From an uncultured Methanobrevibacter sp. (GTDB lineage: Archaea; Methanobacteriota; Methanobacteria; Methanobacteriales; Methanobacteriaceae), in the NCBI GenBank assembly GCA_900314605.1, contig OMVX01000002.1, forward strand, positions 1 through 64,000: 64,000 nt of DNA, written 5' to 3'. A model generated the notes under the pieces. It was not told where the DNA came from. It did no database searches and worked only from the letters and a program-made list of their open reading frames with translations. A program made the position numbers and the translations under genes. Below, piece after piece: positions 1 to 26,031 of the stretch (its first letter is position 1; each line of letters starts with the position of its first letter).

Positions 1-96
1 TAAAAGACCTATGTGTATGTTTGGACGTGTTAAACAAAATTTTTCTAGGGTAAAAAATTAGAAATAAAATTTATCACACAAGTTTTTGAAAGAGCC
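1..96. repeat. Right-end fragment of a MITE-like inverted-repeat element
   Basis: These bases are closely similar to the right-hand part of the element at 1076-1293: both carry a TATGTATGTTTGGAC block and end in an AAGTTTTTGAAAG-GCC terminus. The left part lies outside the window. The two copies are in the same orientation and flank the Ig-like protein gene at 159-752. Confidence 0.6.
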
Positions 97-158
97 AAAA
101 TAAACTAATTATATAACTATATATAGAAGCAATATTAATATATTTAATTGGTGATAAT

Positions 159-752
159 ATGAATAAAAATGTAATTATCGCAATACTAATAATTATTATT
201 ATAGCAGTTGTTGGGATCTTCGGATTCGGACTTCTTGATGGAAAAACTGGAACCCAAATAAATTTTGTAAGTGGGGACCATATTAAAAATGGAGAATCAG
301 TTACAGTAGAACTTAAAGATTCTAATGGAAAAGCAATAACAAATCAAATTGTTAATTTCACATATAATGAAAATAATAAAGCAGAAAAATTTTCAGTATA
401 TACAGATAGTCAAGGAAAAGCATATTTAAATTTTGCAGGCGAAAAAGAAGGACAATATGAAATTTCCGCATCCTACGGAGGAAATGATACATTAAAACCA
501 TGTACTGCAAGTCAAAAAATTACCGTTGTAAAAGGTAATGCTACTGAAACTCCTACTGAAAGTAATTCTACTGCAAGTACAATGGAATATAATAAAAAGA
601 GTGAAGGTTCAACTCAAACCTATTATGATGCAGAATTAGGCCTATACTATGATGGAAACGGTAAAGTTATAGGTGGACAGCACGATGGAGCAAACATCTA
701 TGAACTTAGAGAACACCCTCCATTTGAAGCAGAAGAAGGTGAATTTGTATAA
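159..752 (+). CDS. Membrane-anchored or secreted Ig-like surface protein
   Basis: The 197-residue protein starts with a hydrophobic segment (about residues 4-26) that would export it and probably anchor it by the N terminus. Residues about 33-125 look like a bacterial Ig-like/invasin-type beta-sandwich, with alternating strands, a GESVTVELKD stretch and a GQYEISASYGG-like end that is typical of cell-surface repeats in Methanobacteriaceae. A Thr/Ser/Asn-rich linker (about 128-150) follows, then a Tyr/Gly-rich tail containing GLYYDGNGKVIGGQ. The ATG is preceded by GGTGAT at good spacing. Methanobacteriales encode many such adhesin-like proteins and most are larger, so this is a minimal single-domain version. 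The ligand is unknown. The gene stands alone, ends in a hairpin terminator and lies between two copies of a small inverted-repeat element. Confidence 0.7.
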   Translation: MNKNVIIAILIIIIIAVVGIFGFGLLDGKTGTQINFVSGDHIKNGESVTVELKDSNGKAITNQIVNFTYNENNKAEKFSVYTDSQGKAYLNFAGEKEGQYEISASYGGNDTLKPCTASQKITVVKGNATETPTESNSTASTMEYNKKSEGSTQTYYDAELGLYYDGNGKVIGGQHDGANIYELREHPPFEAEEGEFV

Positions 753-771
753 AATAATTTTTAAATAAAAA

Positions 772-797
772 AAAGTATTATTATTAAATAATACTTT
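772..797 (+). terminator. Hairpin terminator after the Ig-like protein gene
   Basis: A perfect 10-bp stem (AAAGTATTAT with ATAATACTTT) with a 6-nt loop starts 19 bp after the stop codon. An eight-T run follows a few bases later. The stem and T-run suit transcription from the upstream gene. Confidence 0.55.
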
Positions 798-1075
798 AAA
801 CTCCTTTTTTTCAAACAATTATTCTTAATATTAAGCATTATTTTTATACTTTAAACATTTAACTATTTTTATCTAAATTTAGACTTTATTTTTAATATTA
901 AAAATTGCAAAATAATAATTAATCATAAATATGGGATTTGCAAAAATATAACAATTTAATAATTTTTTTCTTTATATTAAATTAAATTCCGTTATACTGA
1001 TTTTATAAATAAGATTTAAACATTTAGCAGCCAGTTATAAAAAATAAAAAAAAGTATCTAAACATAAAAAATTAT

Positions 1076-1293
1076 GGCACTTTCAAAAACTTAAGTGATT
1101 TTAATTTTTACAAGTTATATGCCCCAAAAATTTCCGCCAATTTATTATTTATTTTTAATTTAAAAAATAATAACTTAATATATGTGTAATATAGAAATAA
1201 AAGCTCTATATGTATGTTTGGACTTATTAAACCGAATTTTTCAAAGGTAAAAAAATGGAAATTAAATTTATCACTCAAGTTTTTGAAAGTGCC
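1076..1293. mobile_element. 218-bp MITE-like element with 8-bp target-site duplication
   Basis: The ends are inverted repeats: GGCACTTTCAAAAACTT at the left and its reverse complement at the right, with the similarity running further inward. The element is flanked directly by identical 8-mers AAAATTAT (1068-1075 and 1294-1301), the mark of a transposition event. There is no ORF inside. Termini beginning GGC and 8-bp duplications resemble the ISL3 family, which is an inference. Related copies lie at 1-96 (partial) and 56299-56552. The element fills most of the 706-bp gap between the Ig-like gene and the CARF genes; I see nothing else in that gap apart from the terminator at 772-797. Confidence 0.75.
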
Positions 1294-1458
1294 AAAATTA
1301 TATTTTTACAAAAAAATAGATAGACAATAAACTTATAAAAATCATTTTATAAATAAAGAAATATTAAAAAATTGAATAAAAAAATAGAAAAATATTTGGA
1401 AAGGAATAAAAAAAATTTATAAATTTAATTAACTAACAACAATTGTAAAGTGATAAAA

Positions 1459-2811
1459 ATGTCAAAAACTGCCCTTATAATAACTATTGGTCTAGCTACA
1501 GAACCTTCAATAAAAAGAATTAATAAATTAAAACCTGATTTAGTTTATTTTATACATTCTATAAAATCTAAAGAGAATACATTATTCATAATTGAAGAAA
1601 CTAAAATTAAAAATTATAAATTTAAATTATTAGATGACCATGAAAGTGTTGATGATGCATTCATAAAATCCTTAGAATGTATTAATGAATTAAAAAGTGA
1701 ATACAATATTGTAGGAGATTTTACTGTTGGAACAAAACCAATGGTTGCAGGTCTTGTGATGGCATGTTATGCATATGAAGGTTGTGATTGTGTTTATCTT
1801 GGAGAATCTGATGAAGATTCCAGACATAATAAAATGGGTCCTGTAAAATCAGGCCAGGAAAAAACGAAAAATCAGGAAAATCCATTTGAAAACTATGCAA
1901 TTAATGAAATTAAATCTGGAAGAGAATTTTTTGATAAATACCAATTTATTGCAGCAAAAGAAAACTTTACAAATGCTAAATTAAAATTAAAAGATTCTAG
2001 TTTAAAAGAAAAATCAAAAATATTTATCAAAATTGTAAATTTTTATGATTATTGGGATAAATTTAACGATAGTCTGGATGATATTAAATTAAATGAATAT
2101 TTAAAAGAGATGATTTTAGACGAAATAAATTCAAAAGATGTTTTAAAGGAATATTTTGAAAATAAAATACCTGATTTTTTTAAACAAATGAAAAACAACA
2201 AAAAATTTTTAGATAAAAAAATCTCTGAAAATACATCTGAAAGTATTGATTATTATTTACCAGATTTACTGAATAATGCAGAAAGAAGAATTTCAGAAGG
2301 TAAATATGATGATGCTGTAGCTAGACTTTATCGAGCAATGGAGTTAATATCTCAAATTAGATTAAATCATTATAATGTAATAGATAAATCAGAAATTAAT
2401 AAAAAGAAAACATTTTTACTGGATAAACAAAAATTAAAAAAGAGATTATCAAAACCTAATTTAGCAGAAGTTGATGAGATTGGAATTAAAGACTGGAGAA
2501 ATGATAACATTAAATTTGTTAAATTAGATTCTAGTAAAAATTATAAATTACTGAAATTATTTGGAAAAGAGACAAAATATGAAATTAGCAAATCTACTGA
2601 CAAATTAGTTAAAAATTATTTTAAAATTAATCCTCAAGTACAAAAAAGAAATAAATCTATTTTAGCTCATGGTTTAAGGCCATTGAATAAAGTAGAAACT
2701 TTACAATTATTCAAATTAGTTTTAAATCATTCAAAAAAATTATGTGAAAATATTGAAATTGAAATGGAAAAAAGTAAATTTCCACAATTTAAAGGAGATA
2801 TGTTATGGTAA
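1459..2811 (+). CDS. CARF-HEPN ribonuclease, Cas02710 family (first of tandem pair)
   Basis: The protein has about 450 residues. The N-terminal ~130 residues look like a CARF (Rossmann-like) domain: an LIITIGLATEPS strand-loop and a second motif, GDFTVGTKPMVAG, that matches the ligand-binding hD.T.GTK.M element of the Cas02710/Csx1 group. The middle is helical. The C-terminal part has NNAERRISEGKYDDAVARLYRAMELI and then RNKSILAH (about residues 397-404), an R-x6-H HEPN RNase motif. In type III CRISPR systems such proteins are activated by cyclic oligoadenylate and cut RNA. ATG 1459 was chosen because GTGAT lies just upstream. The gene overlaps the next by 7 nt and so is probably translationally coupled to it. 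No CRISPR array or Cas10 gene is in the window. Ligand and target are unknown. Confidence 0.8.
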   Translation: MSKTALIITIGLATEPSIKRINKLKPDLVYFIHSIKSKENTLFIIEETKIKNYKFKLLDDHESVDDAFIKSLECINELKSEYNIVGDFTVGTKPMVAGLVMACYAYEGCDCVYLGESDEDSRHNKMGPVKSGQEKTKNQENPFENYAINEIKSGREFFDKYQFIAAKENFTNAKLKLKDSSLKEKSKIFIKIVNFYDYWDKFNDSLDDIKLNEYLKEMILDEINSKDVLKEYFENKIPDFFKQMKNNKKFLDKKISENTSESIDYYLPDLLNNAERRISEGKYDDAVARLYRAMELISQIRLNHYNVIDKSEINKKKTFLLDKQKLKKRLSKPNLAEVDEIGIKDWRNDNIKFVKLDSSKNYKLLKLFGKETKYEISKSTDKLVKNYFKINPQVQKRNKSILAHGLRPLNKVETLQLFKLVLNHSKKLCENIEIEMEKSKFPQFKGDMLW

Positions 2812-4037
2812 AAGATATAGCAATGTTAATAACAGTTGGTACTGGTATTGGTGGAACAGAAGAAGCAACAAATAGTTTAGCCCATGGAATTCTTCATGCT
2901 ATAAATCAATTTAATCCTAAAAAAGTTATATTTTTTGGATCTGATTTATCTATACCTACTATTGATTCATTAAAAAAACAATACCTTAAAAAAGAAAATG
3001 ATGAATTTGATTTTTATGAATTCGTAAAAATAAAAGAAATCGATAATTTTAGAGATTGTTTTACTTTAATGAAAGATAAGCTTTTAGAGTTAAATGATAA
3101 TTATAAAATAATTATTGATTATACCTCTGGAACAAAAACAATGACAATGTCTGCTGCATTTGTATCAATGCTTTATCATAAAAAACTAGTGTTAGTTAAA
3201 GGTAAAAGAATGAATGGTATTGTTCAAAAAGGAACAGAGGAAATTTCTTCACAAAATTTATATTTAGTATATGATGAATTGATGATGTCAAAAGTAAAAG
3301 AAATGTTTAATACTAATAGATTTGAATCTGGAAAAACTTTACTTGAAGACATTATCGGAATGAATGATGATAAATTAATTTTTGAAAAATTATTCAATGC
3401 ATATTCTGCCTTTGATAGTGTAAATTATGAGTTAGCTTTTGAAAACTTCAACTCTAAAGAATTTAGTGAAAAATGGCCAGAATTAACCTCAGATTTTCAA
3501 AAAAATGCAAAAGCACTTAATATCTTAAATACCAAAAAACACAATCTAAAATGTTATTATATTCTTGCAAGCCTATTAAATAATGCTAGAAGAAGAGCTG
3601 AAGAACATAAATACGATGACGCAATTGCACGATTATATCGATCATTAGAACTTATAGGGCAGATTAAACTAAAAGAATATGGCATAAACACATCCAATGT
3701 TAATCTGGATAAATTAAAAGAAAATAATCTAAGTGACGAATTTTTAAAAAGTTTTCAGTCAGATGAAGATAATAAGATTAAAATTGGTTTAACACAAGAT
3801 TATATACTTTTAAATGAGTTAAAAGATGAATTAGGATTATTTTATATGGAAAAACACGAATTAATCCTAGAATACCTTAAATATAGAAATAATTCTATAT
3901 TAGCACATGGTTTAAACTCACAAAATGAAAAACATTATAATGATTTTAGAGATATAGTATTAAAAGCTAGTGAAATATTAAATAAAAATATCAATGAATT
4001 TATTTTAGAAACGAAGTTTCCAAAATTTAATTTATAA
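2805..4037 (+). CDS. CARF-HEPN ribonuclease, Cas02710 family (second of tandem pair)
   Basis: This 410-residue paralogue of the previous gene has a more canonical CARF region: LITVGTGIGGTEEATNSLAHG at the N terminus and DYTSGTKTMTMSAAF near residues 105-120. The C-terminal module again has NNARRRAEEHKYDDAIARLYRSLELI, followed by RNNSILAH (about 361-368), the R-x6-H HEPN catalytic signature. Both copies keep catalytic and ligand-type motifs, so neither looks dead. Two CARF-HEPN proteins from one transcript could form a heteromer, since family members dimerise through CARF and HEPN (inference). The start is an ATG inside the upstream gene, with GGAGAT at proper spacing. Transcription ends at the strong hairpin at 4070-4100. 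Confidence 0.82.
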   Translation: MVKDIAMLITVGTGIGGTEEATNSLAHGILHAINQFNPKKVIFFGSDLSIPTIDSLKKQYLKKENDEFDFYEFVKIKEIDNFRDCFTLMKDKLLELNDNYKIIIDYTSGTKTMTMSAAFVSMLYHKKLVLVKGKRMNGIVQKGTEEISSQNLYLVYDELMMSKVKEMFNTNRFESGKTLLEDIIGMNDDKLIFEKLFNAYSAFDSVNYELAFENFNSKEFSEKWPELTSDFQKNAKALNILNTKKHNLKCYYILASLLNNARRRAEEHKYDDAIARLYRSLELIGQIKLKEYGINTSNVNLDKLKENNLSDEFLKSFQSDEDNKIKIGLTQDYILLNELKDELGLFYMEKHELILEYLKYRNNSILAHGLNSQNEKHYNDFRDIVLKASEILNKNINEFILETKFPKFNL

Positions 4038-4069
4038 CAAATTAATGTAATTATAATATTTATTAAGTT

Positions 4070-4100
4070 TATTATTATATAATCTGATTATATAATAATA
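4070..4100. terminator. Bidirectional hairpin terminator between convergent genes
   Basis: A perfect 14-bp inverted repeat (TATTATTATATAAT with ATTATATAATAATA) has a 3-nt CTG loop and is followed by TTTT and then a six-T run. It lies between the convergent CARF-HEPN (+) and nuclease (-) genes. Confidence 0.6.
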
Positions 4101-4256
4101 TTTTAACTATTTTTTACAATAATTTACTTTTTATTATAATAATAAAAGATTAACAAATTTATGATAATTCACTAATAATAATAAAAAAAATGAGAATCCT
4201 TATTAAATATAATAAAAAAAATTTAAATAAAAAATAAAGATTTTAAATAATATTAA

Positions 4257-5171
4257 CTATCCATTTAAGGGTAAACCTAAGTTTTCACGTAAAACATAAT
4301 TTATTTCTTCTTTAAAATCTTCAACAGAAATTATAGACATTCCAAATGTTTTACTTAAGATATATGCAGTATTGGGATGAGGAACATCAGTTAAAACCAT
4401 AAAAGAATATTGTTTATCAAGACCCATTAAACTTTCAACTTCTGAATATTTATTAATATAATGTTGATAATTACCAGTTTTTCCTTCAAACCAGTAAATT
4501 TGTCCATTAATTAAAAAAACAACATCTAATTCAAAATCATCTCCATTTGGTAAAGTTATTTGGGGATTAATTAAATAAGTGTATTCTATGTCTGTAGGTA
4601 AAGACTGTAAAGATTCTTGCACAATTCTTCTAATAAAAATTTCTAACCAGTGGCCAGTTAAAAAGTTTATTGCAATTGGGATTTTATTTGGTGTTGCATG
4701 TATGAAGTATTTAGGTGATTTATCATATTTATATTCGGATAAAAATGCGATTTGATATAAATTATTACACAATTGACAGGAAGCAGAAATTTCATTTTGT
4801 GAAGCATTTTTTAAATCCAAATGAAAACCATGGGGCTTATTTAAGTGACGTTTCATTGCTTCGTAAACTGTTTTAATATCACTATATCTCATACCCATGA
4901 ATTTAGAAATATAATCCATAGAAGTATTTTCATCTTCCTTATCAACATAAGTTTTTACAGTAATATTATTATCTTTTAATTTATCAATTAATATATTAAC
5001 ATCAATTTCTTCTCTTTTATAAATAGGATGGGAAATTGTATTTTCTTCAGAAACAACATTCTGTGATGTATTTACATCCGAAGTTTTAGAGGGATTTTTT
5101 TCTAAAGAATCTGCAATACTTTCTAATGCTACTGCAATTCTAGTTAATATTTGTAATTCTTCTTCATTCAT
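4257..5171 (-). CDS. PD-(D/E)XK nuclease with Card1/Can2-like (DUF1887) C-terminal domain, no CARF seen
   Basis: The protein has about 304 residues. The N terminus is a short coiled coil (EELQILTRIAVALESIADSLE) and a polar linker. The C-terminal half has GHWLEIFIRRIVQESL and then ELDVVFLINGQIYWFEGKTG, i.e. the D-x(n)-E-x-K core of a PD-(D/E)XK nuclease, in the arrangement I know from the DUF1887 domain of Card1/Can2 CRISPR ancillary nucleases. Those enzymes carry an N-terminal CARF domain, and I cannot see one here. A CQLC pair may bind metal. The nuclease converges on the two CARF-HEPN genes, which fits a shared defence role. The second ATG was chosen because GGAAG sits 6 nt upstream of it. 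Metal-dependent nucleic-acid cleavage is inferred; the trigger is unknown. Confidence 0.65.
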   Translation of the reverse strand: MNEEELQILTRIAVALESIADSLEKNPSKTSDVNTSQNVVSEENTISHPIYKREEIDVNILIDKLKDNNITVKTYVDKEDENTSMDYISKFMGMRYSDIKTVYEAMKRHLNKPHGFHLDLKNASQNEISASCQLCNNLYQIAFLSEYKYDKSPKYFIHATPNKIPIAINFLTGHWLEIFIRRIVQESLQSLPTDIEYTYLINPQITLPNGDDFELDVVFLINGQIYWFEGKTGNYQHYINKYSEVESLMGLDKQYSFMVLTDVPHPNTAYILSKTFGMSIISVEDFKEEINYVLRENLGLPLNG

Positions 5172-5232
5172 ATACATCTTCCTGTTAATTAATCATATAA
5201 TGATTAAAAATAATGTTTAAATAATCCTCAAG

Positions 5233-6366
5233 TCATTCAGGATGGTTAATACAATAAGCTTCAGCTATAGAATCATTATCTCCATATGTAGGATCATTTA
5301 ATTGTTTATCTAAAAGCTTTACCTGTTTCATTAAATAGTTCTCTTCATGCAAGTGTTGTTCGATAATATTATTAATATGATTTAATTCCTCTTTTTCAAA
5401 ATCAACACCCTTTATTAACCAATATTCTTGATAGTTGAAAAATTCTAAATAACTATTATCATAATAATCTAAATCATCAATATCATTAGGTTGTAATAGT
5501 TTTATATTATCCTCATCAAAAGGCATATCTATTTCAAAATCCATATGCTCTTCAAAATCCATATGCTCTTCAAAATCCATATCTATTTCAATAGGACAGT
5601 AATCTGTTGAAAAAGTTTCCTTTTGATAATAGTCAAATGACCCTGTAAATTCTGGGTATATTTCATATTGGTTTCCAGAAAAGTCCTCATAAGGAATGTC
5701 ACCATAATCAAGGTCATAACTTTGATCATAATCTTCATAATTAGAACTGTAATAATTTTGGCTTAAGGAAGGATATTTTTCAGATAAATCCCTATACATT
5801 TTATTATAAACAAGGTCATCTTCATAATTGTCATAAACCATCTCTTTATAATCTTCCGGGGTCATTTCAGGAGCATAATCTTCATCTAAAAAATCAAAAT
5901 CCTCATATGAAAGGTCATTTAATTCTTCATCTAAAAGCTTTGCCTCTTCTTTTAAATGTTTCTCTTCTTGTAAGTATTGCTCAATGAGACTATTGATATA
6001 GGACTCCTCACCCATATCTTCTTCATATTCATCTAAGAGGTCTATATAATGCTGTTCATTTTCTTCAAATTCTAGATATCTTAAATAGTCATCTTCATAT
6101 AAGATATCTTCATCCTCATCAAAAAGAGACTCATATAATTGTGAATATGAATTAGTTATATAAGAATCTGTTATAGAATCTTCTTCTAAATTATCTTCTA
6201 AAATAAGTTGCTTTTCATTTTCCAGATAATTTTCAATTAGTAGATTGGTGTGTTCACTTTCCATATCTTCTAATTGTTTAAATGCATTGTATAGATTATT
6301 AATTTCAATATCTAACTTGTTTATTTTTTGGTCAATATTATTAAATTCTTCTAAAAAATCAAACAT
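5233..6366 (-). CDS. Highly acidic protein with internal duplication, function unknown
   Basis: The 377-residue protein is very rich in Asp, Glu and Tyr and has no recognisable catalytic motif. It contains a duplicated helical unit: INSLIEQYLQEEKHLKEEAKLLDEELND near the middle and INNIIEQHLHEENYLMKQVKLLDKQLND near the C terminus, with a weaker copy near residues 40-60 (LLIENYLENEKQLILEDN). A perfect 18-bp tandem DNA repeat (about 5541-5580) encodes an MDFEEH repeat. The charge suggests a DNA mimic, chaperone or scaffold, which is an inference from composition only. GGGGAT precedes the ATG. It is the last gene of the long minus-strand block and follows the 890-residue zinc-ribbon protein by 85 bp. 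Confidence 0.6.
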   Translation of the reverse strand: MFDFLEEFNNIDQKINKLDIEINNLYNAFKQLEDMESEHTNLLIENYLENEKQLILEDNLEEDSITDSYITNSYSQLYESLFDEDEDILYEDDYLRYLEFEENEQHYIDLLDEYEEDMGEESYINSLIEQYLQEEKHLKEEAKLLDEELNDLSYEDFDFLDEDYAPEMTPEDYKEMVYDNYEDDLVYNKMYRDLSEKYPSLSQNYYSSNYEDYDQSYDLDYGDIPYEDFSGNQYEIYPEFTGSFDYYQKETFSTDYCPIEIDMDFEEHMDFEEHMDFEIDMPFDEDNIKLLQPNDIDDLDYYDNSYLEFFNYQEYWLIKGVDFEKEELNHINNIIEQHLHEENYLMKQVKLLDKQLNDPTYGDNDSIAEAYCINHPE

Positions 6367-6451
6367 ATTATCCCCTAAACTATTAATTACTATTATTTAT
6401 TAATATTTTAATTATATAAATATAAGGTATGCTCATTTTCAATATATTATT

Positions 6452-9124
6452 TTAATTAAGAATTTCTCTTTTCATATCTTCTATATCATCTAAATCATTT
6501 CTTAAAATACCTGAAGAAACAGTGAGTTTTTGATAATTGAAGAAATCATTAAATTGTTCTAATGGCTCATCATCCGAATCTTTATTATTAATAGATTCAT
6601 ATAATTCAGAATTATAACCACGTTTACTAATAAATATTTCTTCATCACCATTTTCATCATTATCATTATCATCTAAATTAAGAACAATATTTTCTTTTTC
6701 AATTAAGCCCTCTTCCTTCCAGATTTGAAAATCTTTATTGGTGAAATTAATTTCAAACATTTTTAAGATTAAATGAATAGGTTTTCCTTCCAGAACCATT
6801 TCATTGAAATATAATAAATTAGGTTTCATATAATGATTATAAAAGAATTCTGAAAACTCTTTAAACTTATCATCACTCTTTCCTTTATAATACCAATCAT
6901 AAATATCGTCAAATGAAACACCAGCATGCTTAGCAGCAATTTCTGTAGTTTGGTCATTAAGGATTTCGTTCATAACAATTTCTATTCGTTTATCCAAAAT
7001 CATCTCATCAATAGTAGATTTAAATTGGTCAAACTCTATTTGATCTAAATTAGATTTTTGTAAGGCCTTTCGATGATTAGTTCCTGAGACAATCTGGTTT
7101 ACATAAATATCTATTTTAAGGCTTAGATAAGATTCATAAAATTGGTCATATGGATTAACACCTTCTCGACCTAGGTCATAATACTTATTAAACTCATCTA
7201 AAGTTAAATCACATGCGTCTAATGATTTTTTAAAAGGTTTACGTTCTATTTCATTAATAAAATTTAGTAATTTCATAGGAATAATATTCTCTTTATAATA
7301 ATCAAATAATTCCTTGTAACGTTCATGGCCTCTTTCACCTAGCCTTAAATATTCATTAATAGTACTTATACTTACACCAACTAAATCTGAAATATCTCTT
7401 TTAGATTTATTAGTCTTAAATCCATTTAAAATTAAAAAGATATTAACATCAAGATTTTTATCTTTAAATTCCTTAAATCTAGATATATCTGTTTTAAGCC
7501 AATAATCTATATATTTAGGTTTAATACCAATTGATTCTATAGATTCTTCTTTAGTTTTACCATTTTTACGTTCATTTAAATACTTATCCATTAAAATTTT
7601 AGTTGAATTTTTATAAAAATATGAATCAATATCTGCATCATCATACCATTTATAAAAATCATGAATATAAATTTTAGATAGTTTACAGGAAGTTTTTAAA
7701 TCATTAGATTTTAAATTCGTGACAAAACGTTCTTTTCTTGATTCGATTTCTAAATATAGTGCTTGTGAAAATTTATCATTATTAAATGTAGACTCTTTTT
7801 TAATTTCTCTATATTCTTTTTGAGTTATTCCTGCCTGTTGTAATACTTCCAATGGAGTTTTATCTTCACTATAACCTTTTATAATCAGATCTTTTTTAAT
7901 GTCATTTAATTGAATTATAAATTCTTCAAAGTTATCATGCCAAAAATTATAAATCTCATCTGAAATATCTAATTCAATTCGAATATCCTTATCAAACATA
8001 CCCTTTGATTTTAAGTGAAGATATTCATCCATTAACAATCGATTATATATAACAAAGGATTCATTTACATTATCTCTATTAAATTTAGCTAAATGAATAC
8101 TATACCATCGGTTTAATTGTTTTTGACTTATTGTTGTATATTCAATACTGGAGGAGATATTTTCCGTTGTAAGTAGATCCTGTTCAAATTTTTTAACAAT
8201 TTCCTCATTTGTTATCCTATATAACTGGTTAAAAGGTTCATGTTTAAACTTACCTTCTTTGTATTCATATGTTTCTTTCATATCCTTTGGAGTAATTTTA
8301 TCTTCTCTAAATTGAGTTATTAACTCACATATTTTTATATAATTATCTATTTTTTGAAGATAATCATCTAAATGAATATTATTAAATGTAATGAATCTTC
8401 CTTTAACATTTAACATCTTTTCCCTAACCATTGTATTAATTAATTGATTAGCATAAGCCTCAGCTAATCCATAATCAATTAAATCTTCTTTAGTAAACTC
8501 TGCATTTTTACCAAAGTTATTACGAATAGATATGAAATTATTTGCATTATCTATTACTCTATTACATTTTTCACAACAAAGAGAATAATTGGAATGATTA
8601 GGTTCACCACAGATTACACAATAATCATAACTAATATCAATTACCTCAGAAAAATCAGGAATTTTAATTAACTCAAGTTCATCATCACTTGTATCAATTT
8701 CAATTGGTTTAAAAGAGGGAACACCTGTAAAATCATCATAATTAGTAGAAAAATCCCTATATAATTTCTTAGAAATATAAAATAATTGTTTATGTAATTG
8801 CTGGGCAATGAGAAATTCACTTTTCTCCATTTCTTCCACATGATCATGAATACGGTTTCTAAGTTTATATGCACTATAAATCTTTTGTTTAAAATTATAT
8901 GCTATTATACCTTCCCTATAAACTGTATCTAACATATTATAAAAGATATTTCGAGAATTAAATTTTTGACTACTTTTCGCCATTAATAAATTTAATACTC
9001 TCTCTAGAAATGGAGTAGCATAAGTTTTTACTGCTGCAGGAGATGTACTTATACTATCCTCTATTTTATTTCCTAATCTGTATAAATCATCATCATAATT
9101 TTTTAAAAAATCAAAGTTAGACAA
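6452..9124 (-). CDS. Large zinc-ribbon protein with DUF4145/HEPN-like N terminus and repeated HTH-like units
   Basis: The protein is about 890 residues from TTG 9124. That TTG has a strong GGGGGTG upstream, whereas ATG 9181 has none. The N-terminal ~130 residues are helical and include LRNRIHDH, resembling the R-N..H motif of DUF4145/HEPN folds. A four-cysteine knuckle (CVIC...CCEKC) follows near residue 170. The C-terminal two thirds holds about seven loosely repeated units of 60-75 residues, each with a short helix-turn-helix-like element ending in an aromatic pair (FYKWYDD, YIDYWLK, DEFNKYYDLG, DDIYDWYYKG). These resemble transposase or Hin-type HTH repeats. The tail is acidic. I infer a nucleic-acid-binding scaffold, but the actual function is not known. 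Confidence 0.6.
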   Translation of the reverse strand: MSNFDFLKNYDDDLYRLGNKIEDSISTSPAAVKTYATPFLERVLNLLMAKSSQKFNSRNIFYNMLDTVYREGIIAYNFKQKIYSAYKLRNRIHDHVEEMEKSEFLIAQQLHKQLFYISKKLYRDFSTNYDDFTGVPSFKPIEIDTSDDELELIKIPDFSEVIDISYDYCVICGEPNHSNYSLCCEKCNRVIDNANNFISIRNNFGKNAEFTKEDLIDYGLAEAYANQLINTMVREKMLNVKGRFITFNNIHLDDYLQKIDNYIKICELITQFREDKITPKDMKETYEYKEGKFKHEPFNQLYRITNEEIVKKFEQDLLTTENISSSIEYTTISQKQLNRWYSIHLAKFNRDNVNESFVIYNRLLMDEYLHLKSKGMFDKDIRIELDISDEIYNFWHDNFEEFIIQLNDIKKDLIIKGYSEDKTPLEVLQQAGITQKEYREIKKESTFNNDKFSQALYLEIESRKERFVTNLKSNDLKTSCKLSKIYIHDFYKWYDDADIDSYFYKNSTKILMDKYLNERKNGKTKEESIESIGIKPKYIDYWLKTDISRFKEFKDKNLDVNIFLILNGFKTNKSKRDISDLVGVSISTINEYLRLGERGHERYKELFDYYKENIIPMKLLNFINEIERKPFKKSLDACDLTLDEFNKYYDLGREGVNPYDQFYESYLSLKIDIYVNQIVSGTNHRKALQKSNLDQIEFDQFKSTIDEMILDKRIEIVMNEILNDQTTEIAAKHAGVSFDDIYDWYYKGKSDDKFKEFSEFFYNHYMKPNLLYFNEMVLEGKPIHLILKMFEINFTNKDFQIWKEEGLIEKENIVLNLDDNDNDENGDEEIFISKRGYNSELYESINNKDSDDEPLEQFNDFFNYQKLTVSSGILRNDLDDIEDMKREILN

Positions 9125-9193
9125 ATAAACACCCCCAATTATAAAATATATAGATTTTTTAAGTAATAATAATTTTTCCATTAAATCAACATT

Positions 9194-12945: not shown

Positions 12946-13845
12946 TTATATATCTTTAAAGTATGGCATGTGTATAATTTCATCTTCATATATTAATGCA
13001 GAGCCAGAACCATAATCATTGGTGAATTTAATTAGTTCTCCAAGGCCAGGTGCTTCCTGTTTAATAAAAACTGAATTTGAAATATTATTAATAATTTCAT
13101 TAATATTAGCCTCATAACTAATATCAATCTCTTTATAATCAAGACTATCAATAATATAACTTTTAATAATCTTATCATGATAATTTGCATAAATATCAGG
13201 ACTATTAAAGAGCTCAAGACCTACAACTTCATTGTTAATAATTGCAATAATACCAGATTGACCAACTGATAAATCAAATGATTTTAAAAATTCATCTTGA
13301 TCTTGGCTAAAATCTTCATAACAGTCATTCATAGCACTAGTATCTGGCCTTGTTGAACATCGATCAGAAAACAAATCAATAGAATCCCATACATTATCTT
13401 GCCTGGATCTTTCATCAATAGCACTTGCTTTAGCTCGACGTGTATTTGAATTTGCAAAATATTGAGATTCTTCAAAAAGTACAGACTTATTATTCTTATA
13501 ACTCCATCTATCTCTTTCAGTACAGCTAACAGATATTTTCATGGTGGTTTTTGGTGGAACTAAAATAGTATTATTTACTATACGATTCTGTTTTGCTCCA
13601 ATAATCTCTTCTCCATCAACTAATATTAAGGGAGTAACTGCATTATTAGTTATGAGAATATTATTTACATCTTCAACTTCACATTCTTTAACTTCAACAA
13701 GACCTAAATCAAATCCTTTATTTAAAGTAAGAATATCAGTGGTGTTGGAAGTTTCAGATTTTAAAGGAATAATTGTAAGAGCATTATGACTTTGGATTTT
13801 TAATGTCTCAAAAATTATACTATTTTCATTAATTTTAATTTTCAT
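12946..13845 (-). CDS. ARPP-1-like domain protein (DUF6569 type)
   Basis: The protein is about 299 residues from ATG 13845, which has GGGGTGA upstream. The hallmark segment is VDGEEIIGAKQNRIVNNT...VPPKTTMKISVSCTERDRWSY (about residues 75-120), which I recognise from the ARPP-1 (ARG and rhodanese-phosphatase-superfamily-associated) domain. The rest is alpha/beta with GQSGIIAIINNEVVGLELF and an acidic C terminus. The biochemical role of ARPP-1 is not established; computational surveys of prokaryotic conflict genes place it in ADP-ribose-linked and defence contexts (from memory). It follows the HIRAN-like gene by about 50 bp and precedes the zinc-ribbon and vWA genes. Confidence 0.65.
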   Translation of the reverse strand: MKIKINENSIIFETLKIQSHNALTIIPLKSETSNTTDILTLNKGFDLGLVEVKECEVEDVNNILITNNAVTPLILVDGEEIIGAKQNRIVNNTILVPPKTTMKISVSCTERDRWSYKNNKSVLFEESQYFANSNTRRAKASAIDERSRQDNVWDSIDLFSDRCSTRPDTSAMNDCYEDFSQDQDEFLKSFDLSVGQSGIIAIINNEVVGLELFNSPDIYANYHDKIIKSYIIDSLDYKEIDISYEANINEIINNISNSVFIKQEAPGLGELIKFTNDYGSGSALIYEDEIIHMPYFKDI

Positions 13846-13893
13846 ACTATTCACCCCGATTAATAATAAAAAAAATAAAAAGAAAAAAATAAT

Positions 13894-18809: not shown

Positions 18810-21404
18810 TTAACAAAAATCTTCAATAGAAAAAGAAGTATTTAATTTTGAATTTATCTTTTTTAATCTGTTAGCAAACCAAGTATCGCTCGTTTTACAT
18901 TTATCAAATGGAGGAGATTTATAATATAATTTAATAATATTTAATTCTCTTTCATAATCTTCTAATTTTTCTAAAGAAAAACAGATTCTTTTATAAAAAT
19001 CATAAAACTGATATTTTTCATTATGAATTATTTTAGTAAAGAATTCAATTGCATCTTCATATTTACCTTCTTTTTCTAAATTACGACCTATTTCATTTAA
19101 TTCATATTTTTTCTGAAGTTTTTCATATTCTTGCTCCGAAACAAGTTTTAAATTGTCTCTACTCCCTATTAATCTATCTGCAACAGGAACTGGAGTATGA
19201 AGTTTTGATTTATTTATAGCACCGTGATTTTGATAATATTCAAAACATTGAAAAATTTCTATTTCATTAAATGAAATTTTATCTCTTATTATCTTTAATT
19301 TTGAGTAAATCCAAATTAATTGATAAGAGGGTAAAAAAATATCTGATTTAAGCATCATTTTTATAGAATCTAACATCCCTTTAAAATCGTCCATTAATTC
19401 ATAAACAATACATAACTGCCTATATGGATAGTAATCATTAATAAAATAAGAATTTTCTATTAATAAATTCAAATAATCAATTAGAGTTGAATAATCTTTT
19501 TCAGATTTTAAAATCAAAGCTTTCTGTTTTAATAAGATTTTATTATTTACATTTTCATTAAAACTTAAAGAAGGATCATATTCATATAAATTGTCTTTAC
19601 ATATTTCCTCATTGGTATTTTCATTATTCAACGTAATAACATTTGCCTCTATAATTTTAGGATTTGATTTATTATTAGATAAATCCTTAGGTTTTTCTTC
19701 CTCCGGATAATTTAAATCTTTTTTGATTATTGTAGGTTTAATATTAATAGCATCCTTAAAATAATCAGGTATTAAATAATGTCTTGCATTATCTACTTTA
19801 AGATAATAGTCTAATCTACTATCAATAAAATAAGTTTTACAGTAATCATCTTCTGATCTCATTCCTCTACCATATGTTTGGACTAATGTAATAGCTGTTT
19901 TATATTGAAACCAAAAAGGATCATCTTTTCTTCTGAACTCTGTTTGTTTATCCTTGATACTAGGATAAGGAATTTTATATATAATCTGAAATCGACATAG
20001 GTCGCCAGGTAAATCAACTCCCTGATTCATGGAAGGACTAATAAGAACTAATGGTTTTTTAGATTTTTTAAACTTATTTAAAATTTTTTCTCTGTTACGA
20101 TTATTATGGTCAATTAATCTTTTATCATCCAATTCCTTTTTTAAAAATTCTTTACATCGGTAACTGACTGTGTGAATTATACCTTTATCATTTTTATGCT
20201 TTTCTAAAATCTCTTTTATAATTGGAATAGATTTTTTTGAGCTTTTAGGTAGATACTTGTAAGCCATATTTAATCCTGAATATGTTTTTATAGGATTCCT
20301 TCCAATATCAAATGGTGATTTTCTTCTAATAGCATAAATTTCATCTTCCTCAATACCTAACCATTTAGCAAATTTAGAGTAATTTAAAATTGTACCACTC
20401 AAAAATATACATTTATCCCCATACCTCAAAATGCTGTCTTTAGCATATTTATCTACCTTAATAGGTTTGAAAGATAATGTTTGAGAACGTTTATCATAAT
20501 CAACTATCCAATTATGTGGATCTACTTTAATATATTTAATAAACTTACTAAAGTCCTTAATTTTCTGTTTTAAATTTTCAATTTTTTTACTTAAAGTGAA
20601 AACCTTACGATTATCTAAAGCTTCTTTAGACTCTTTTAACTGTTTTTGATATGATTTTTTAATTTTATCAACAAAAAATATCCATGATTTATAACCATTA
20701 ATCTCTAAATCTAGAATTACATCTTTAGATAAATTAATACCGACTTCTTCTTTTAAATCTTTCCTTGTAAACTCTAAACTGATTAAGTCCATTAATTTAC
20801 TTTCTAAATTATGAGCTTCATCAAAAATCATTAATTCTCTTTTTTGAAAACCGCCGGGGTTGTGTAATTCTAAAAACATATAATCATAATTACTTATAAC
20901 AACCTTAGAATTTAAGCCGACAGCTTTTTGATAATGATATGGACAAGACTGTTCTTTGCCTTTATCATTATAATCAAACATTGTTACTCTATTATCACAG
21001 GAATAGGCTTCTAAAATACATTTACCATAATCACAGGTTTCATCTATTTTCTCATTAGCATATGTTAAACATTTAAAATTTTTCCTACCTTTAACAAGAG
21101 CAAAATTATAATCTTTAAAATCATCAAGATATTGATTCTGTAGTTGTTTAGTAATGGTTAAAATATATGCATCCTCATAAATCCTTGCGAGAGTTGCAGC
21201 TATAGCTGATTTACCAGTACCGGTTCCTGCTTCAAGAACGATATAATTATATCCCTTATTTATAGCATCAAAAATTTCAGATATTGTTTCTAATTGATGT
21301 GGACGAGGTTTATTAAATGGAAAATTATCAACGACTTCTTGAAAAATTTTTGTATAATTAGAATACTTCCATTCATTAGCTTTTTTAGAATTTTTATAAA
21401 ACAT
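18810..21404 (-). CDS. Rad3/XPD/DinG-type superfamily 2 helicase with C-terminal helical extension
   Basis: The 864-residue protein has an intact ATPase core: RPHQLETI (Q-like motif), Walker A EAGTGTGKSA (58-67) and DEAH (195-198), with VQTYGRGMRS near residue 500 as motif VI. Between Walker A and DEAH lie cysteines 112, 124, 129, 136 and 154, the place where XPD and DinG bind a 4Fe-4S cluster. The protein should therefore be a 5'-3' DNA helicase that unwinds or remodels forked DNA. The last ~280 residues are helical and TPR-like (for example GRNLEKEGKYEDAIEFFTKII), unusual for DinG. GGTGGAG precedes ATG. A catalytically dead relative is encoded 2.5 kb upstream in the same block. Confidence 0.85.
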   Translation of the reverse strand: MFYKNSKKANEWKYSNYTKIFQEVVDNFPFNKPRPHQLETISEIFDAINKGYNYIVLEAGTGTGKSAIAATLARIYEDAYILTITKQLQNQYLDDFKDYNFALVKGRKNFKCLTYANEKIDETCDYGKCILEAYSCDNRVTMFDYNDKGKEQSCPYHYQKAVGLNSKVVISNYDYMFLELHNPGGFQKRELMIFDEAHNLESKLMDLISLEFTRKDLKEEVGINLSKDVILDLEINGYKSWIFFVDKIKKSYQKQLKESKEALDNRKVFTLSKKIENLKQKIKDFSKFIKYIKVDPHNWIVDYDKRSQTLSFKPIKVDKYAKDSILRYGDKCIFLSGTILNYSKFAKWLGIEEDEIYAIRRKSPFDIGRNPIKTYSGLNMAYKYLPKSSKKSIPIIKEILEKHKNDKGIIHTVSYRCKEFLKKELDDKRLIDHNNRNREKILNKFKKSKKPLVLISPSMNQGVDLPGDLCRFQIIYKIPYPSIKDKQTEFRRKDDPFWFQYKTAITLVQTYGRGMRSEDDYCKTYFIDSRLDYYLKVDNARHYLIPDYFKDAINIKPTIIKKDLNYPEEEKPKDLSNNKSNPKIIEANVITLNNENTNEEICKDNLYEYDPSLSFNENVNNKILLKQKALILKSEKDYSTLIDYLNLLIENSYFINDYYPYRQLCIVYELMDDFKGMLDSIKMMLKSDIFLPSYQLIWIYSKLKIIRDKISFNEIEIFQCFEYYQNHGAINKSKLHTPVPVADRLIGSRDNLKLVSEQEYEKLQKKYELNEIGRNLEKEGKYEDAIEFFTKIIHNEKYQFYDFYKRICFSLEKLEDYERELNIIKLYYKSPPFDKCKTSDTWFANRLKKINSKLNTSFSIEDFC

Positions 21405-21563: not shown

Positions 21564-22766
21564 TTATATTACATGAATATTTACTGCATTTAATTTAAAT
21601 TCATCTTTAGATTTATCATAACCCTCTTCAAGATAAAATAAAACATTTACGCCCTCTTTAAAATCATCTTCATCTCCTTTAAATTGGAATTTATTAAAGA
21701 AATAAGACTCACCATCATCAGTTCTAATAAAACCAGATTTTCCATGTGGAAGAATCTTAGAGATATAACCTGAACATTCCTCCTGATTTTTATATTTTAA
21801 TTCAATCCAAAAACCAGCAAGTTCTTTTTCAATTTTCCAATATTCAGTATTATCAGGATCAAAATTGGAATCTGTAATTTTATCCTCTAAACTTTCATCA
21901 ATTGACCATTCATTATGTAATCTAATAGAATAAACTAGATAAGCATGTTTTAAGGCAATATCAGGATATTCATCCTGAAGTAAATCTTCAAGTAAAGAAT
22001 ATAATTTAACTTTTTTATCAATATCACCATGACTTAAAGCTGCAGACACTGCATATTCAAGAGATTTTGCATAATCCTCTTCAAAAAAGTAATTTTCAGC
22101 AATTTCACTTTGAATAAACCAATCCTGTTTATATTTATATACCTCATTAAGATATTCAATAGCTTCGGTGTATTCTCCAATTTCCCTTAATGATTTTGCT
22201 ATTCTCCATTTAAACCAGATATCACTATTATTTGTAAAGTTATCTAATTTTTCTAGTGCCTCTTTAGAAATAGTTAAACATTCATCATAGTCTTCTTCTT
22301 CAAGATAAGATTTGGAAAGTAAAGAATAATATTTTTCTCTAGAAGATTGGTTATTAATTACTCTTCCATCATCTCTAGTGAATGATGAAGTTTTTGAAGA
22401 TAAAAAATCAGGATTTAATCTATCTGACCAAACAATAATGTCTTCATAATCATTATTTTTTGATAAATAATCTAGAAGTTTCATCATAGATAAAGTATAT
22501 GCACATACCCCATCCTTTTTAGAAAGGTTTTCCTGAGGTAATAATTGGGTGACTAAATCTACCGCTTCAATTAATTCTGTTTCATTTTCTGGATTTTTAA
22601 TGTAAGTCTGATAAAGAGCCCAGCAATAAAATCTTTTATCCCAAATGTCAAATGCATCTTGATTATCTTCATAAATAGATTCATATAAATCTTTAGATTC
22701 TTCATATTTTTTGCTTTGATAAAGCTTTTTTGCCTGAATTAAAGTCTTTTTAATATCTTCACTCAA
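21564..22766 (-). CDS. TPR protein with C-terminal cold-shock (CSD-like) domain
   Basis: The protein is about 400 residues. Most of it is helical repeats of TPR type (IKKTLIQAKKLYQSKKYEESKDLYESIY; ALEKLDNFTNNSDIWFKWRIAKSLREIGEYTEAIEYLNEVYK; AENYFFEEDYAKSLEYAVSAA). The last ~65 residues read GYISKILPHGKSGFIRTDDGESYFFN...GVNVLFYLEEGYD, a cold-shock/OB-fold pattern with the GFI and YFF positions that contact single-stranded nucleic acid. A TTG at 22766 is preceded by GGGGTGG, which also contains the alternative GTG start at 22775. It is likely a nucleic-acid-binding scaffold for the neighbouring helicases (inference). Confidence 0.7.
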   Translation of the reverse strand: MSEDIKKTLIQAKKLYQSKKYEESKDLYESIYEDNQDAFDIWDKRFYCWALYQTYIKNPENETELIEAVDLVTQLLPQENLSKKDGVCAYTLSMMKLLDYLSKNNDYEDIIVWSDRLNPDFLSSKTSSFTRDDGRVINNQSSREKYYSLLSKSYLEEEDYDECLTISKEALEKLDNFTNNSDIWFKWRIAKSLREIGEYTEAIEYLNEVYKYKQDWFIQSEIAENYFFEEDYAKSLEYAVSAALSHGDIDKKVKLYSLLEDLLQDEYPDIALKHAYLVYSIRLHNEWSIDESLEDKITDSNFDPDNTEYWKIEKELAGFWIELKYKNQEECSGYISKILPHGKSGFIRTDDGESYFFNKFQFKGDEDDFKEGVNVLFYLEEGYDKSKDEFKLNAVNIHVI

Positions 22767-23014
22767 ATAATCCACCCCATTTCTATTATATGTATATAAA
22801 TTTCTATTTAAATTATTTATACTTTAATATTTAATTTAGATAATTTAACTCTTTTATTTTTTATGAAAAAAATCAAATCTAATTTGATTAATCAATTAAA
22901 AATACATATTTGTATTAGTTAATTAGGAATTGTTAAATATATTCTAAATAAATTTATTAAAATTTAATTATTCATTATATCTGATTAAATAAACTTCAAT
23001 TGGAAATTTTTTCC

Positions 23015-23932
23015 TTAAATTAATTTTTGCTGAACAGATTTAGATTTTTTTTGATTTATAGAATTCTTTAATTTATCTAAAACATCATCCACATTATCAA
23101 TTTTCAATGCATTTTTATTATCACTTAAAATTAATTGATTTCCCTCATAAAACCCTTCTGGATATTCATTAGGAAGAAATGAGTAAATTTGTTTTCCATA
23201 TTCTTGAGCAAAATCTACAGTGTGTAGTGTTCCACTATTAACTCCACATTCAACAACAAAAATATCCTGTGACAATGCTGCTACCATTCGATCCCTTTCA
23301 ATATAATGTCCTTTCTGAAATTTAACCCCTGGTTCATATTCAGAAATCAGACAACCTCCTGTTTTAATAATTTCTTCAGCTAGTTTTTTATTTGAAGCAG
23401 GTGTAATTTTAGTAATATCACTTGGAAGAACTGCAATTGTAATTTTATTTTCATCTACTGTGGTTTGATGTGCAATTTTATCACATCCCAAAGCTAAACC
23501 GCTTAAAATAACTCTATTTGTAACATTAACAATATTTTTTACTAATAATTCCTCAAATTCTACACTAACCTTATAAGGTTTTCTTGTTCCTATAACACCA
23601 ATATTTGGCTTTGTTAATGAATCAAGATTACCTTTAACATATAAAATGAGAGGCTTTTTATTACCCATAATGTTTAATTGTTTAGGATAATTTTCATCAA
23701 AAACGGTGATAACATCAATATCAGAATTAAAAAGATCATCATATAAATTTTCAGCATAATTCATAGATATTTCCGTCTCTTCCTTTGAAAGTTTACTTTC
23801 CAATTCTACTTCAGAAACTAAATCATAAAAATCATCCGATTCTTTAAGTATTTCCCAATATTTATCATATATAGTGGCTTTTCCAACATCTTTTAAATTT
23901 TTTAAAAATAATATTTCTTTAAGTTTAATCAT
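23015..23932 (-). CDS. DprA/Smf-like SLOG-domain protein
   Basis: The protein is about 305 residues. The Rossmann-like SLOG core is clear: NIGVIGTRKPYKVS, VILSGLALGCDKIAHQTTVD, TIAVLPSDI, GCLISEYEPG, RDRMVAALSQDIFVVECGVNSGTLHTVDFAQEYGKQIYSF. These match the DprA motifs (G-S/T-R, SGxAxGID-like, NR.I..LS...VVE...SGTL.TA..A...G). DprA loads RecA on ssDNA during transformation in bacteria, while SLOG proteins in conflict operons may bind nucleotides instead. The ATG (23932) follows GGTGAT; an earlier ATG overlaps the upstream stop (ATGGTGA). Tight coupling to the pseudo-helicase-phosphoribosyltransferase gene implies a joint function. Confidence 0.85.
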   Translation of the reverse strand: MIKLKEILFLKNLKDVGKATIYDKYWEILKESDDFYDLVSEVELESKLSKEETEISMNYAENLYDDLFNSDIDVITVFDENYPKQLNIMGNKKPLILYVKGNLDSLTKPNIGVIGTRKPYKVSVEFEELLVKNIVNVTNRVILSGLALGCDKIAHQTTVDENKITIAVLPSDITKITPASNKKLAEEIIKTGGCLISEYEPGVKFQKGHYIERDRMVAALSQDIFVVECGVNSGTLHTVDFAQEYGKQIYSFLPNEYPEGFYEGNQLILSDNKNALKIDNVDDVLDKLKNSINQKKSKSVQQKLI

Positions 23933-23937
23933 AATTA

Positions 23938-26031
23938 TCACCATAATGTTTTAAATAGAGCAAATTTAATAATATGATTTTTACTAGCACCATTTTTTAT
24001 TAAAATATCTTCACAAGCATCCATTACTGTTCCTCTAGTACATATATCATCTAAAATTATAAATACAACATCATCCCTTTCAAAAATATTATCATATACA
24101 CATTCGATTGAATTCATATGTTCTATATAGCTTGGACGTTTTTTCGTTATATGAGAAGTAGCTACATCTTTAGTTCGAATTAGTAAATTACTACAATTAA
24201 CAATCTCTTTATCACAAGCGAATCTTGTTTTTATTTTACCTTCATTATACCATTGTGAAAAGCATTTTATACTTTCTCTCATAGTAGCAAATTTATCCCT
24301 TTCTTTTGTAGATGAAGGAACAGAAATTAAAGCTATTTTATTTATTTGATTACTGATAAATTTATAAGATATTTCAGATATAGCCTCCATTAATCTTTTA
24401 TTAAAATAATTAAAGGAACCTAAACATCTTTCAGATTTTTCTGTTCCGTAATATTTATAATATAATATTTTTTCACTTAAACTTTTACTCTCACTATATT
24501 TATGATTAGAATCTATATTTTTATATTTATTATCTTTTACATAATCAAATAGATAATAAACTCCAAATTGTTTTTTAATATTACTGGTAACATATCCATA
24601 TCCTTTATCCATATCTACAATTGAATCAAGAATATACCTTGGAATAAATTTATTATTAAGAATATCATTCTTAATACTCAGTATAATAGGCTCATCAATA
24701 ATATATGAAACACAATTATCATCTGACTTTCTATTAATTCGTTGTAACATTTGTACAATGTAAAAAGCTTTTTTGTAGGAATACCAATTATTTTCTTTAT
24801 TTTTAATTTTAGCTCTTTTATTCCATGGAAGTAATTTTTCTTTCATAATTATTTGAAAATTACAGTTATATTTTTTAAAATCCATCTCCTCGTCTATTGA
24901 ATCAGAAACAAAAACAAAATTATCAATTTCTTTAAAATCAATATTATTTAATTTATTTTTTGGGTAATTTTTAATTGATATTATACGCCTGTCATTAATT
25001 TCATGATTAATTAAATTTTTATAACGCCTAGTGCAATCAATTATTCCTTTATCATTTTTATGTTTCTTCAATATATCTTCAATAATGAGTATTAAAAACT
25101 TTTTATTATCATAATAATTTTTCAAATAAAGATTATTTCTTAAAAAAATTTGTTGTTTATTCGAATCCCCCTTAAGAAGTTTTTTAATAAATTTTACTTT
25201 AAAATTATTTAAACCTAATTCTTGAGTAAATATTTCAGAATCTAATATTACGGGACTTATAAAAATACATATTTCTGCTTTATTTAACAAAAACTTCTTT
25301 AAAAGATTACCTATATTTAATGGTTGGAATTTTAAGCTTTTATACTTATAATTATCATAAGAACAAATCCAATTATCAGGATTTTCTTTAATAGAATCAA
25401 TAACAATATCTATTTTATCATCATCTAATTGTAAGAACTTAAAAAAATCTAACCAATCCTTATAATTTTTTTCCTCTAACTCTTTAACATTAAAATCCAG
25501 TGCATTAATTTTTTCTTTAAATTTTTCTATATCAATAGTATAAGTGAAAAAATTTGCAATATTTTCATCAATACTATAAGCATCATCAAAAATTAATAAG
25601 TTAATATTTTCGAAATCTTTAAACTTAAATATATTTTGATGAGTTGAAAAATGGATTTGTTCTTGATATTTTAAATCATAGCTTTTTATATATTTATTTT
25701 TAAGAAACTCATTTTCAGACAAAATAAATGAATTTTTGTATTTATTAGCTAAATTAATAGCAATAGAAGATATTTCAACATTTGTTTCTAAAATAATATA
25801 TTTATATCCATCTGTAATAGCTTGAATAATTCTATTCAATAGTTTATTTTGGTCTTCATTTAATGTAAGAGAATGAAAATTTTCTTTCATATCATTTTGA
25901 GATTGCCTTTTGGAGTCATTTGAATCTGTTTTTATATATTTATTCTTTTTAGAAAAATTAAAATTACTTTGATCGCAACAATATCCACAGATACACATAG
26001 ATTTAGGCAAACCACATTTAGGACAGAACAT
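23938..26031 (-). CDS. Inactivated Rad3-type helicase fused to a ComFC-like phosphoribosyltransferase
   Basis: The protein is about 697 residues from ATG 26031, with GGGGGGT upstream. It opens with a Cys-rich zinc ribbon (CPKCGLPKSMCICGYCC). Residues ~55-470 align by eye with the active helicase at 18810-21404 (shared landmarks ILE, SYD, KHKNDKGII, WYSYKKAFYIVQ), but the Walker A position reads ILETNVEISS, the DEAH position reads DDAY, and the FeS-region cysteines are absent. The C-terminal ~150 residues form a type I phosphoribosyltransferase: ALISVPSSTKERDK, ITKKRP and the PRPP loop VFIILDDICTRGT (656-668). ComFC homologues work with DprA in competence. Here the dead helicase may recruit DNA or the active helicase. 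This is the first gene of the block. Confidence 0.75.
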   Translation of the reverse strand: MFCPKCGLPKSMCICGYCCDQSNFNFSKKNKYIKTDSNDSKRQSQNDMKENFHSLTLNEDQNKLLNRIIQAITDGYKYIILETNVEISSIAINLANKYKNSFILSENEFLKNKYIKSYDLKYQEQIHFSTHQNIFKFKDFENINLLIFDDAYSIDENIANFFTYTIDIEKFKEKINALDFNVKELEEKNYKDWLDFFKFLQLDDDKIDIVIDSIKENPDNWICSYDNYKYKSLKFQPLNIGNLLKKFLLNKAEICIFISPVILDSEIFTQELGLNNFKVKFIKKLLKGDSNKQQIFLRNNLYLKNYYDNKKFLILIIEDILKKHKNDKGIIDCTRRYKNLINHEINDRRIISIKNYPKNKLNNIDFKEIDNFVFVSDSIDEEMDFKKYNCNFQIIMKEKLLPWNKRAKIKNKENNWYSYKKAFYIVQMLQRINRKSDDNCVSYIIDEPIILSIKNDILNNKFIPRYILDSIVDMDKGYGYVTSNIKKQFGVYYLFDYVKDNKYKNIDSNHKYSESKSLSEKILYYKYYGTEKSERCLGSFNYFNKRLMEAISEISYKFISNQINKIALISVPSSTKERDKFATMRESIKCFSQWYNEGKIKTRFACDKEIVNCSNLLIRTKDVATSHITKKRPSYIEHMNSIECVYDNIFERDDVVFIILDDICTRGTVMDACEDILIKNGASKNHIIKFALFKTLW

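Follow-up and report, generated by a model that had tools for sequence, protein, structure and literature searches.

Two kinds of proteins described from type III CRISPR-Cas systems bear on the locus reported here. Csm6/Csx1-type RNases (TIGR02710; PADLOC CARF1-CARF_HEPN) follow a CARF-linker-HEPN order and carry a GTK-type ligand loop and an R-x6-H motif. Can2, Card1, Cdn1 and VC1899 (CARF4-PD-(D/E)xK, DUF1887) join a CARF domain to a nuclease with a catalytic E...D...ExK core, and in Cdn1 the cyclic oligoadenylate works by forming the dimer interface of the nuclease domains, according to PMC12825302. PMC11229360 provides a precedent for effectors encoded away from their type III locus. CARF homologues are abundant outside CRISPR-Cas, as stated in PMC12669027; the existence of orphan CARF proteins is therefore nothing new. 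Here we describe a stretch of 64,000 nucleotides (the window) from an uncultured Methanobrevibacter sp., which encodes two tandem CARF-HEPN proteins, A and B, and a convergent nuclease that lacks a CARF domain. We consider it likely that A and B are RNases of the Csm6/Csx1 (TIGR02710) kind which serve the type III-A system of the genome in trans while being encoded apart from it, and that the nuclease is a separate gene. The pair belongs to a familiar type but stands in an unusual location, and the three genes have probably come together by chance within an island rich in defence genes.

The CARF-HEPN pair and the type III-A locus

Both A and B are full-length reading frames with intact CARF and HEPN motifs (Table 1). 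Their scores against the TIGR02710 profile, 159 bits for A (E 1.6e-46) and 184.5 bits for B (E 2.9e-54), exceed the curated cut-off of 83.9 bits. The Pfam Csm6 HEPN model (E 1.2e-27 and 4.6e-37, respectively) and the PADLOC CARF1-CARF_HEPN profile (full-length matches, E 2.5e-119 and 3e-138) agree with this assignment. The CARF domain of both proteins is supported by the PADLOC CARF1 profile together with the conserved GTK loop; the GTK column is kept in 17 of 17 rows of the A-type alignment, and the HEPN motif is intact in 16 of them. A and B therefore resemble Csm6/Csx1-type RNases in domain order, loop and R-x6-H motif, and differ from them in that their genes overlap in tandem at a site separate from the type III locus; they are predicted RNases. 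Identity between A and B is only 29%, indicating an old duplication. The 7-bp overlap with the GGAG upstream of the start codon of B suggests co-translation, and translational coupling of the two genes is plausible. A model of B obtained with AlphaFold2 from the sequences of A and B reached a mean predicted local distance difference test score (pLDDT) of 49 and was not used for structure search. Searching PDB sequences returned no match for B and one ribosomal chance match for A, and neither B nor the nuclease has a relative on any viral contig. The original prediction had placed two tandem CARF-HEPN genes opposite a Card1-like nuclease, an arrangement borne out by the open reading frames, the profiles and the nuclease model.

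Table 1. Positions of the features discussed (window coordinates unless a contig or locus is named)
Feature	Position	Strand	Remarks
CARF-HEPN protein A	1450..2811	+	453 amino acids (aa) from GTG at 1450; ATG at 1459 gives 450 aa
CARF-HEPN protein B	2805..4037	+	410 aa
A/B overlap, 7 bp	2805..2811	+	GGAG just upstream of the ATG of B, within the end of A
A, CARF ligand-loop motif DFTVGTKPM	1717..1743	+	residues 90-98
A, HEPN motif RNKSILAH (R-x6-H)	2647..2670	+	
B, CARF ligand-loop motif DYTSGTKTM	3117..3143	+	residues 105-113
B, HEPN motif RNNSILAH (R-x6-H)	3885..3908	+	
CARF-less Can2/Card1-like PD-(D/E)xK nuclease	4257..5177	-	306 aa; convergent with A-B
Nuclease, N-terminal helix in place of CARF	5097..5165	-	residues 5-27; residues 30-43 have pLDDT <50
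Nuclease, region matching the post-CARF part of Can2, Cdn1, VC1899 and Card1	4278..5009	-	residues 57-300
Dispersed 235-bp inverted-repeat element, like a miniature inverted-repeat transposable element	1066..1300	.	directly upstream of A
Other copies of the 235-bp element	1-134 (partial); 56293-56593; C21:71088-71338 (L004:7088-7338); C44:83-184 (L002:83-184)		
909-aa protein, function unassigned	6452..9181	-	50% identical to the protein between CARF-HEPN genes in the G038 type III accessory block
TPR + cold-shock/OB protein	21564..22775	-	43% identical to the gene adjoining the A-type CARF-HEPN in the G038 type III accessory block

The source genome comprises 2.37 Mb in 103 contigs. Profile searches of all contigs placed its sole Cas10 match and its sole RAMP matches on one contig, C44, where NCBIfam identified cas10/csm1 (TIGR02578, E 7.8e-180), csm2, csm3, csm4, csm5 and cas1. 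The cas2 match is weak and falls below the cut-off, and a further gene without an NCBIfam match was taken for cas6 on account of its place in the locus and of a cluster conserved over 18 loci. The locus includes its own, third CARF-HEPN gene (identity with A 39%, with B 27%) and a CRISPR array of about 60 repeats that extends to the contig end. The Cas10 carries HD at residue 18 and GGDD at residue 653, so it should make cyclic oligoadenylate. The search for cas10 and arrays elsewhere in the genome, advised with the original prediction, thus led to a complete III-A locus with an array. The accompanying claim that neither an array nor Cas10 lies near the pair holds for the window: a repeat scan of it found no array-like repeat, and profile searches gave no Cas10 or RAMP match, although a search for every cas family over the whole window was not made. 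One PADLOC-listed gene of ancillary type, the TPR + cold-shock/OB protein, occurs farther into the window. A type III locus beside A-B was not seen in the window, and such adjacency is not a defining feature of the TIGR02710 family.

Because C21, the contig of the window, begins with the first base of the window, nothing to the left is visible. C21 and C44 each carry a copy of the 235-bp inverted repeat at the left end. Each contig ends near a copy of it, and no exact suffix-prefix overlap of more than 10 bases was found between them in the one orientation tested. The contig ends decide the adjacency of C21 and C44 neither way, and a type III locus directly outside the window is possible. Rfam gave no match over window positions 1-6500.

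Relatives of A and B were compared in a CARF-HEPN tree of 65 rows from the family of the window, Methanobacteriaceae. The tree leaves out rows shorter than 330 aa, such as the broken copies in G006, G080, G081, G028 and G078:C124, and was built without the TIGR02710 loci of G056, G110, G112, G114, G115 and G120. Window A groups with the A copy of genome G087 at 100/100, and window B groups with copies of G040, G087 and G038 at 100/96. The G087 genes, 48% (A) and 51% (B) identical to those of the window and orthologous to them, form the nearest A-B tandem and stand directly upstream of cas10 in the order A-B-cas10-csm2-csm3-csm4-csm5-cas6. Beside the cas10 of G038 the order is cas10-B-B'-909aa-...-A-TPR/OB; the A-type copy there is 40% identical to window A, and the block has four families in common with the first 23 kb of the window, including the 909-aa and TPR/OB families. 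Given the A-B tandem beside cas10 in G087 and the families shared with the G038 block, the left part of the window has the look of an accessory island of type III that has been displaced. The G087 and G038 blocks adjoin cas10, whereas their window counterparts are on a contig other than that of cas10. The B copy of G040 is likewise on another contig than the cas10 of that genome.

If A and B act in trans, the III-A complex encoded on C44 would recognise invader RNA and its Cas10, as the HD and GGDD motifs suggest, would make cyclic oligoadenylate. The messenger would bind the dimerised CARF domains in A, in B and in the CARF-HEPN protein encoded on C44, in line with family membership and the conserved motifs, and the HEPN sites would then degrade RNA and slow the cell. 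Surveys confined to cas10 neighbourhoods would in that case miss type III effectors.

A Can2-like nuclease without a CARF domain

The Card1_endonuc Pfam match of the convergent nuclease is weak (E 8e-4, below the cut-off), and the fold was confirmed by an AlphaFold2 model built from 25 sequences (pLDDT 90.7). In these sequences E179, D218 and E231 are invariant and K233 is kept in at least 90%, and the core elements GxWLE, ELD and ExK are all present. Residues 57-297 superimpose on residues 139-365 of Can2 (7bdv) with Z 17.8 (202 aligned residues, root-mean-square deviation 3.2). Further matches are to Cdn1 (9u49, 149-399; Z 16.8), VC1899 (1xmx, 133-383; Z 15.4) and Card1 (6xl1, 142-373; Z 11.7). 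The nuclease is therefore the same as these proteins from the end of the CARF domain on, including the catalytic core, and differs from them in carrying a 23-residue helix where they carry CARF. The roughly 57 residues ahead of the Can2-like part, which begins at residue 139 in Can2 itself, comprise this helix and a low-confidence stretch. The DUF1887-like C-terminal core and the lack of a visible CARF domain had both been read from the sequence beforehand and are upheld by the model; the structure prediction of the N terminus, advised at the same time, shows no CARF fold. With a match that begins only after CARF, the modelled protein is not a member of the Can2/Card1 group in the strict sense. 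As modelled, it is a Can2/Card1-type variant that has lost its CARF sensor.

Without a CARF pocket, activation of the nuclease by cyclic tetra- or hexa-adenylate (cA4/cA6) would not be expected. By analogy, a dimerising helix could stand in for the ligand-driven dimer step of Cdn1. Tentatively, the nuclease would probably cut nucleic acid once helix-driven dimerisation, or a partner, joins two nuclease domains. The existence of a CARF-less Can2 family shows that inputs other than CARF can be coupled to the nuclease half, whose activation mechanism is directly testable.

Searched with the nuclease alignment, 84,980 species genomes yielded 38 loci in many phyla; the single nuclease sequence used as query returned no named relatives. 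The relatives are solitary genes in many bacteria. Most of the 38 loci share the same short N-terminal helix. Five (L135, L137, L141, L150 and L157) encode a hydrophobic N-terminal segment instead (mean hydropathy 1.8-2.5 over 19 residues), and two (L169 and L170) a stretch that reads by eye as helix-turn-helix-like. Besides the nuclease, nothing is common to more than a quarter of the neighbourhoods. Within the family of the window, 7 of 138 genomes carry the nuclease. The other six have no CARF gene in its neighbourhood, indicating that the nuclease is not a conserved partner of A-B. Two of the six are complete, single-contig genomes, in which neither Cas10 nor RAMPs nor TIGR02710 gave a match. 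On a Thiomargarita contig (L144), the nuclease gene (687-1607) lies next to a cas1-like gene (1768-2745, E 6e-13), from which three short repeats separate it. A homologue of the ARPP-1 domain protein of the window (L020:182-1192) lies directly upstream of the nuclease with the helix-turn-helix-like stretch in L020/L169. PF22335 Cas10 matched 26 of 36 nuclease carriers (24 over the cut-off). This uncontrolled count was not used as evidence, because PF22335 also matches E. coli, presumably via GGDEF domains.

Solitary relatives and the weighing of readings

TIGR02710 proteins were found in 61 of the 138 family genomes, Cas10 in 23 and RAMPs in 25. Thirty rows of the tree form one clade (100/100) of slow-evolving, solitary CARF-HEPN proteins with short branches. 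Of the thirty, 24 come from genomes without a match to Cas10 or RAMPs; completeness reaches 90% or more in 11 of these genomes, one of which shows 6% contamination. No member of a cas10, csm, cas6 or cas1 cluster was found in the flanks (up to 8 kb, less at contig ends); at one locus, in G018, an array lies about 3 kb away. The motif RN-x-SILAH is kept in 30 of 30 solitary proteins and the GTK loop in nearly all. Nonsynonymous to synonymous rate ratios (dN/dS) were computed for 19 of the 30 genes, and were 0.03-0.17 in the 14 closest pairs listed. Across the 25 pairs with dS <2 the median was 0.12 and the maximum 0.17; many other pairs were saturated. On these sequence grounds the solitary CARF-HEPN proteins are kept for some function. 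Examples are L079:7872-9161 (G032) and L120:7314-8603 (G088), and several solitary loci (L077, L083, L089, L116, L120 and L122) have the same chromosomal neighbours.

Two families were considered as substitutes for Cas10. None of the 138 genomes had an mCpol match over the cut-off, with one sub-threshold match in G122. SMODS matched in 114 of 138, nearly all as proteins of about 450-500 aa with one copy per genome, which look to us like the CCA-adding enzyme, so that the SMODS matches say very little about a substitute; apart from these, G028 (E 5.7e-25, 344 aa) and G075 (334 aa) hold the best candidates. It is conceivable, though we would not count on it, that two parts of type III signalling have become independent: a CARF-HEPN lineage under purifying selection in archaea without Cas10 would sense a messenger made by some other enzyme, and a widespread family of Can2-type nucleases with swapped sensors (helix, membrane or DNA-binding) would read another signal. 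Activity of the solitary clade without Cas10 would imply an undescribed source of the activating nucleotide in methanogens. In the titles, abstract openings and passages available to us, no work on solitary CARF-HEPN proteins in Methanobrevibacter or on a CARF-less Can2 was found.

Service to the III-A system in trans is supported for A and B by the III-A locus in the genome and by the G087 tandem upstream of cas10, in agreement with the earlier suggestion of accessory genes for a distant type III locus. Several points weigh against it. The III-A locus already has a CARF-HEPN gene, so A and B may be redundant; most solitary relatives occur without a Cas10 or RAMP match, so the presence of such a protein is no proof of Cas10 dependence; and the poor model of B, built from two sequences, leaves its CARF fold to the profiles. 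Contig breaks also conceal the real distance from A-B to the III-A locus, and the function of A and B is read from computation rather than from the bench. The solitary clade, with its retained motifs and low dN/dS, raises the alternative that A-B too is independent of Cas10 and takes its ligand from a source other than the type III complex, and B does fall in the same larger tree group as that clade. However, B lies outside the clade, both B and A have type III-linked copies as their neighbours in the tree (several for B, one for A), and Cas10 is present in this genome; we regard Cas10 independence of the pair as quite unlikely. The divergent CARF-HEPN gene of the C44 locus and the broken relatives in G006, G080, G081 and G028 would fit decaying relics, left after the type III locus moved or was replaced. 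Such decay is very doubtful for two full-length genes in which neither the CARF nor the HEPN motif is damaged.

A, B and the nuclease gene lie side by side, with the nuclease convergent to A-B, as would be expected of one CRISPR-independent system with its own trigger. Yet six other family genomes carry the nuclease without an adjacent CARF gene, phmmer searches with A and B found a CARF-HEPN gene near the nuclease in 0 of 38 named loci, no nucleotide cyclase gene was recognised among the open reading frames examined, and relatives of A-B adjoin cas10. A stand-alone three-gene system is therefore most improbable; the original prediction had offered a stand-alone signalling defence, which is unsupported for this genome, and had treated the genes as one set, a grouping that the six other nuclease carriers do not support. 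The nuclease might alternatively be a trans-acting part of the type III response; its helix could, for instance, let a different effector, itself bound to cyclic oligoadenylate, recruit or activate it. Among 291 cyanobacterial genomes 13 matched the nuclease, of which G254, G323 and G340, all RAMP-positive, were dropped (E 3e-4 to 7e-4, catalytic stretch only). RAMPs occur in 9 of the 10 remaining carriers and in 72 of 281 others (Fisher 5.5e-5, uncorrected for kinship and genome size). In the family of the window they occur in 4 of 7 carriers and 21 of 131 others (p 0.02, likewise uncorrected), and cas1 adjoins the nuclease in L144. Against this, the two single-contig carriers have neither Cas10 nor RAMP, 37 of 38 named loci show no linkage, and the association, uncorrected for genome size, habitat and kinship, would be inflated by cyanobacteria with small genomes, in which both tend to be missing. 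We take the co-occurrence as a hint, and a type III role of the nuclease as unlikely. For A and B, service to the III-A system in trans is the reading we retain.

Other genes of the window

Between the nuclease and the 909-aa gene, positions 5233-6366 encode a very acidic protein of 377 aa that matches no family and whose gene contains repeats with units of 125 nt and 18 nt. The ARPP-1 domain protein (E 1.5e-79) is at 12946-13854. A DinG-like helicase at 18810-21404 has typeIV_DinG as its top PADLOC match (E 4.4e-78); no type IV CRISPR gene was seen. At 23015-26067, a DprA-like gene accompanies a large gene that matches PADLOC ShosA (E 4.9e-65) and ShosT (E 5.1e-14); the two may form a defence pair of the Shosta type. 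The family of 900-1000 aa to which the 909-aa protein belongs recurs near CARF-HEPN genes in three lineages (L093:10444-13146, L086, L090 and L113, besides the window), and its N-terminal stretch contains an RNRIHDH-like sequence.

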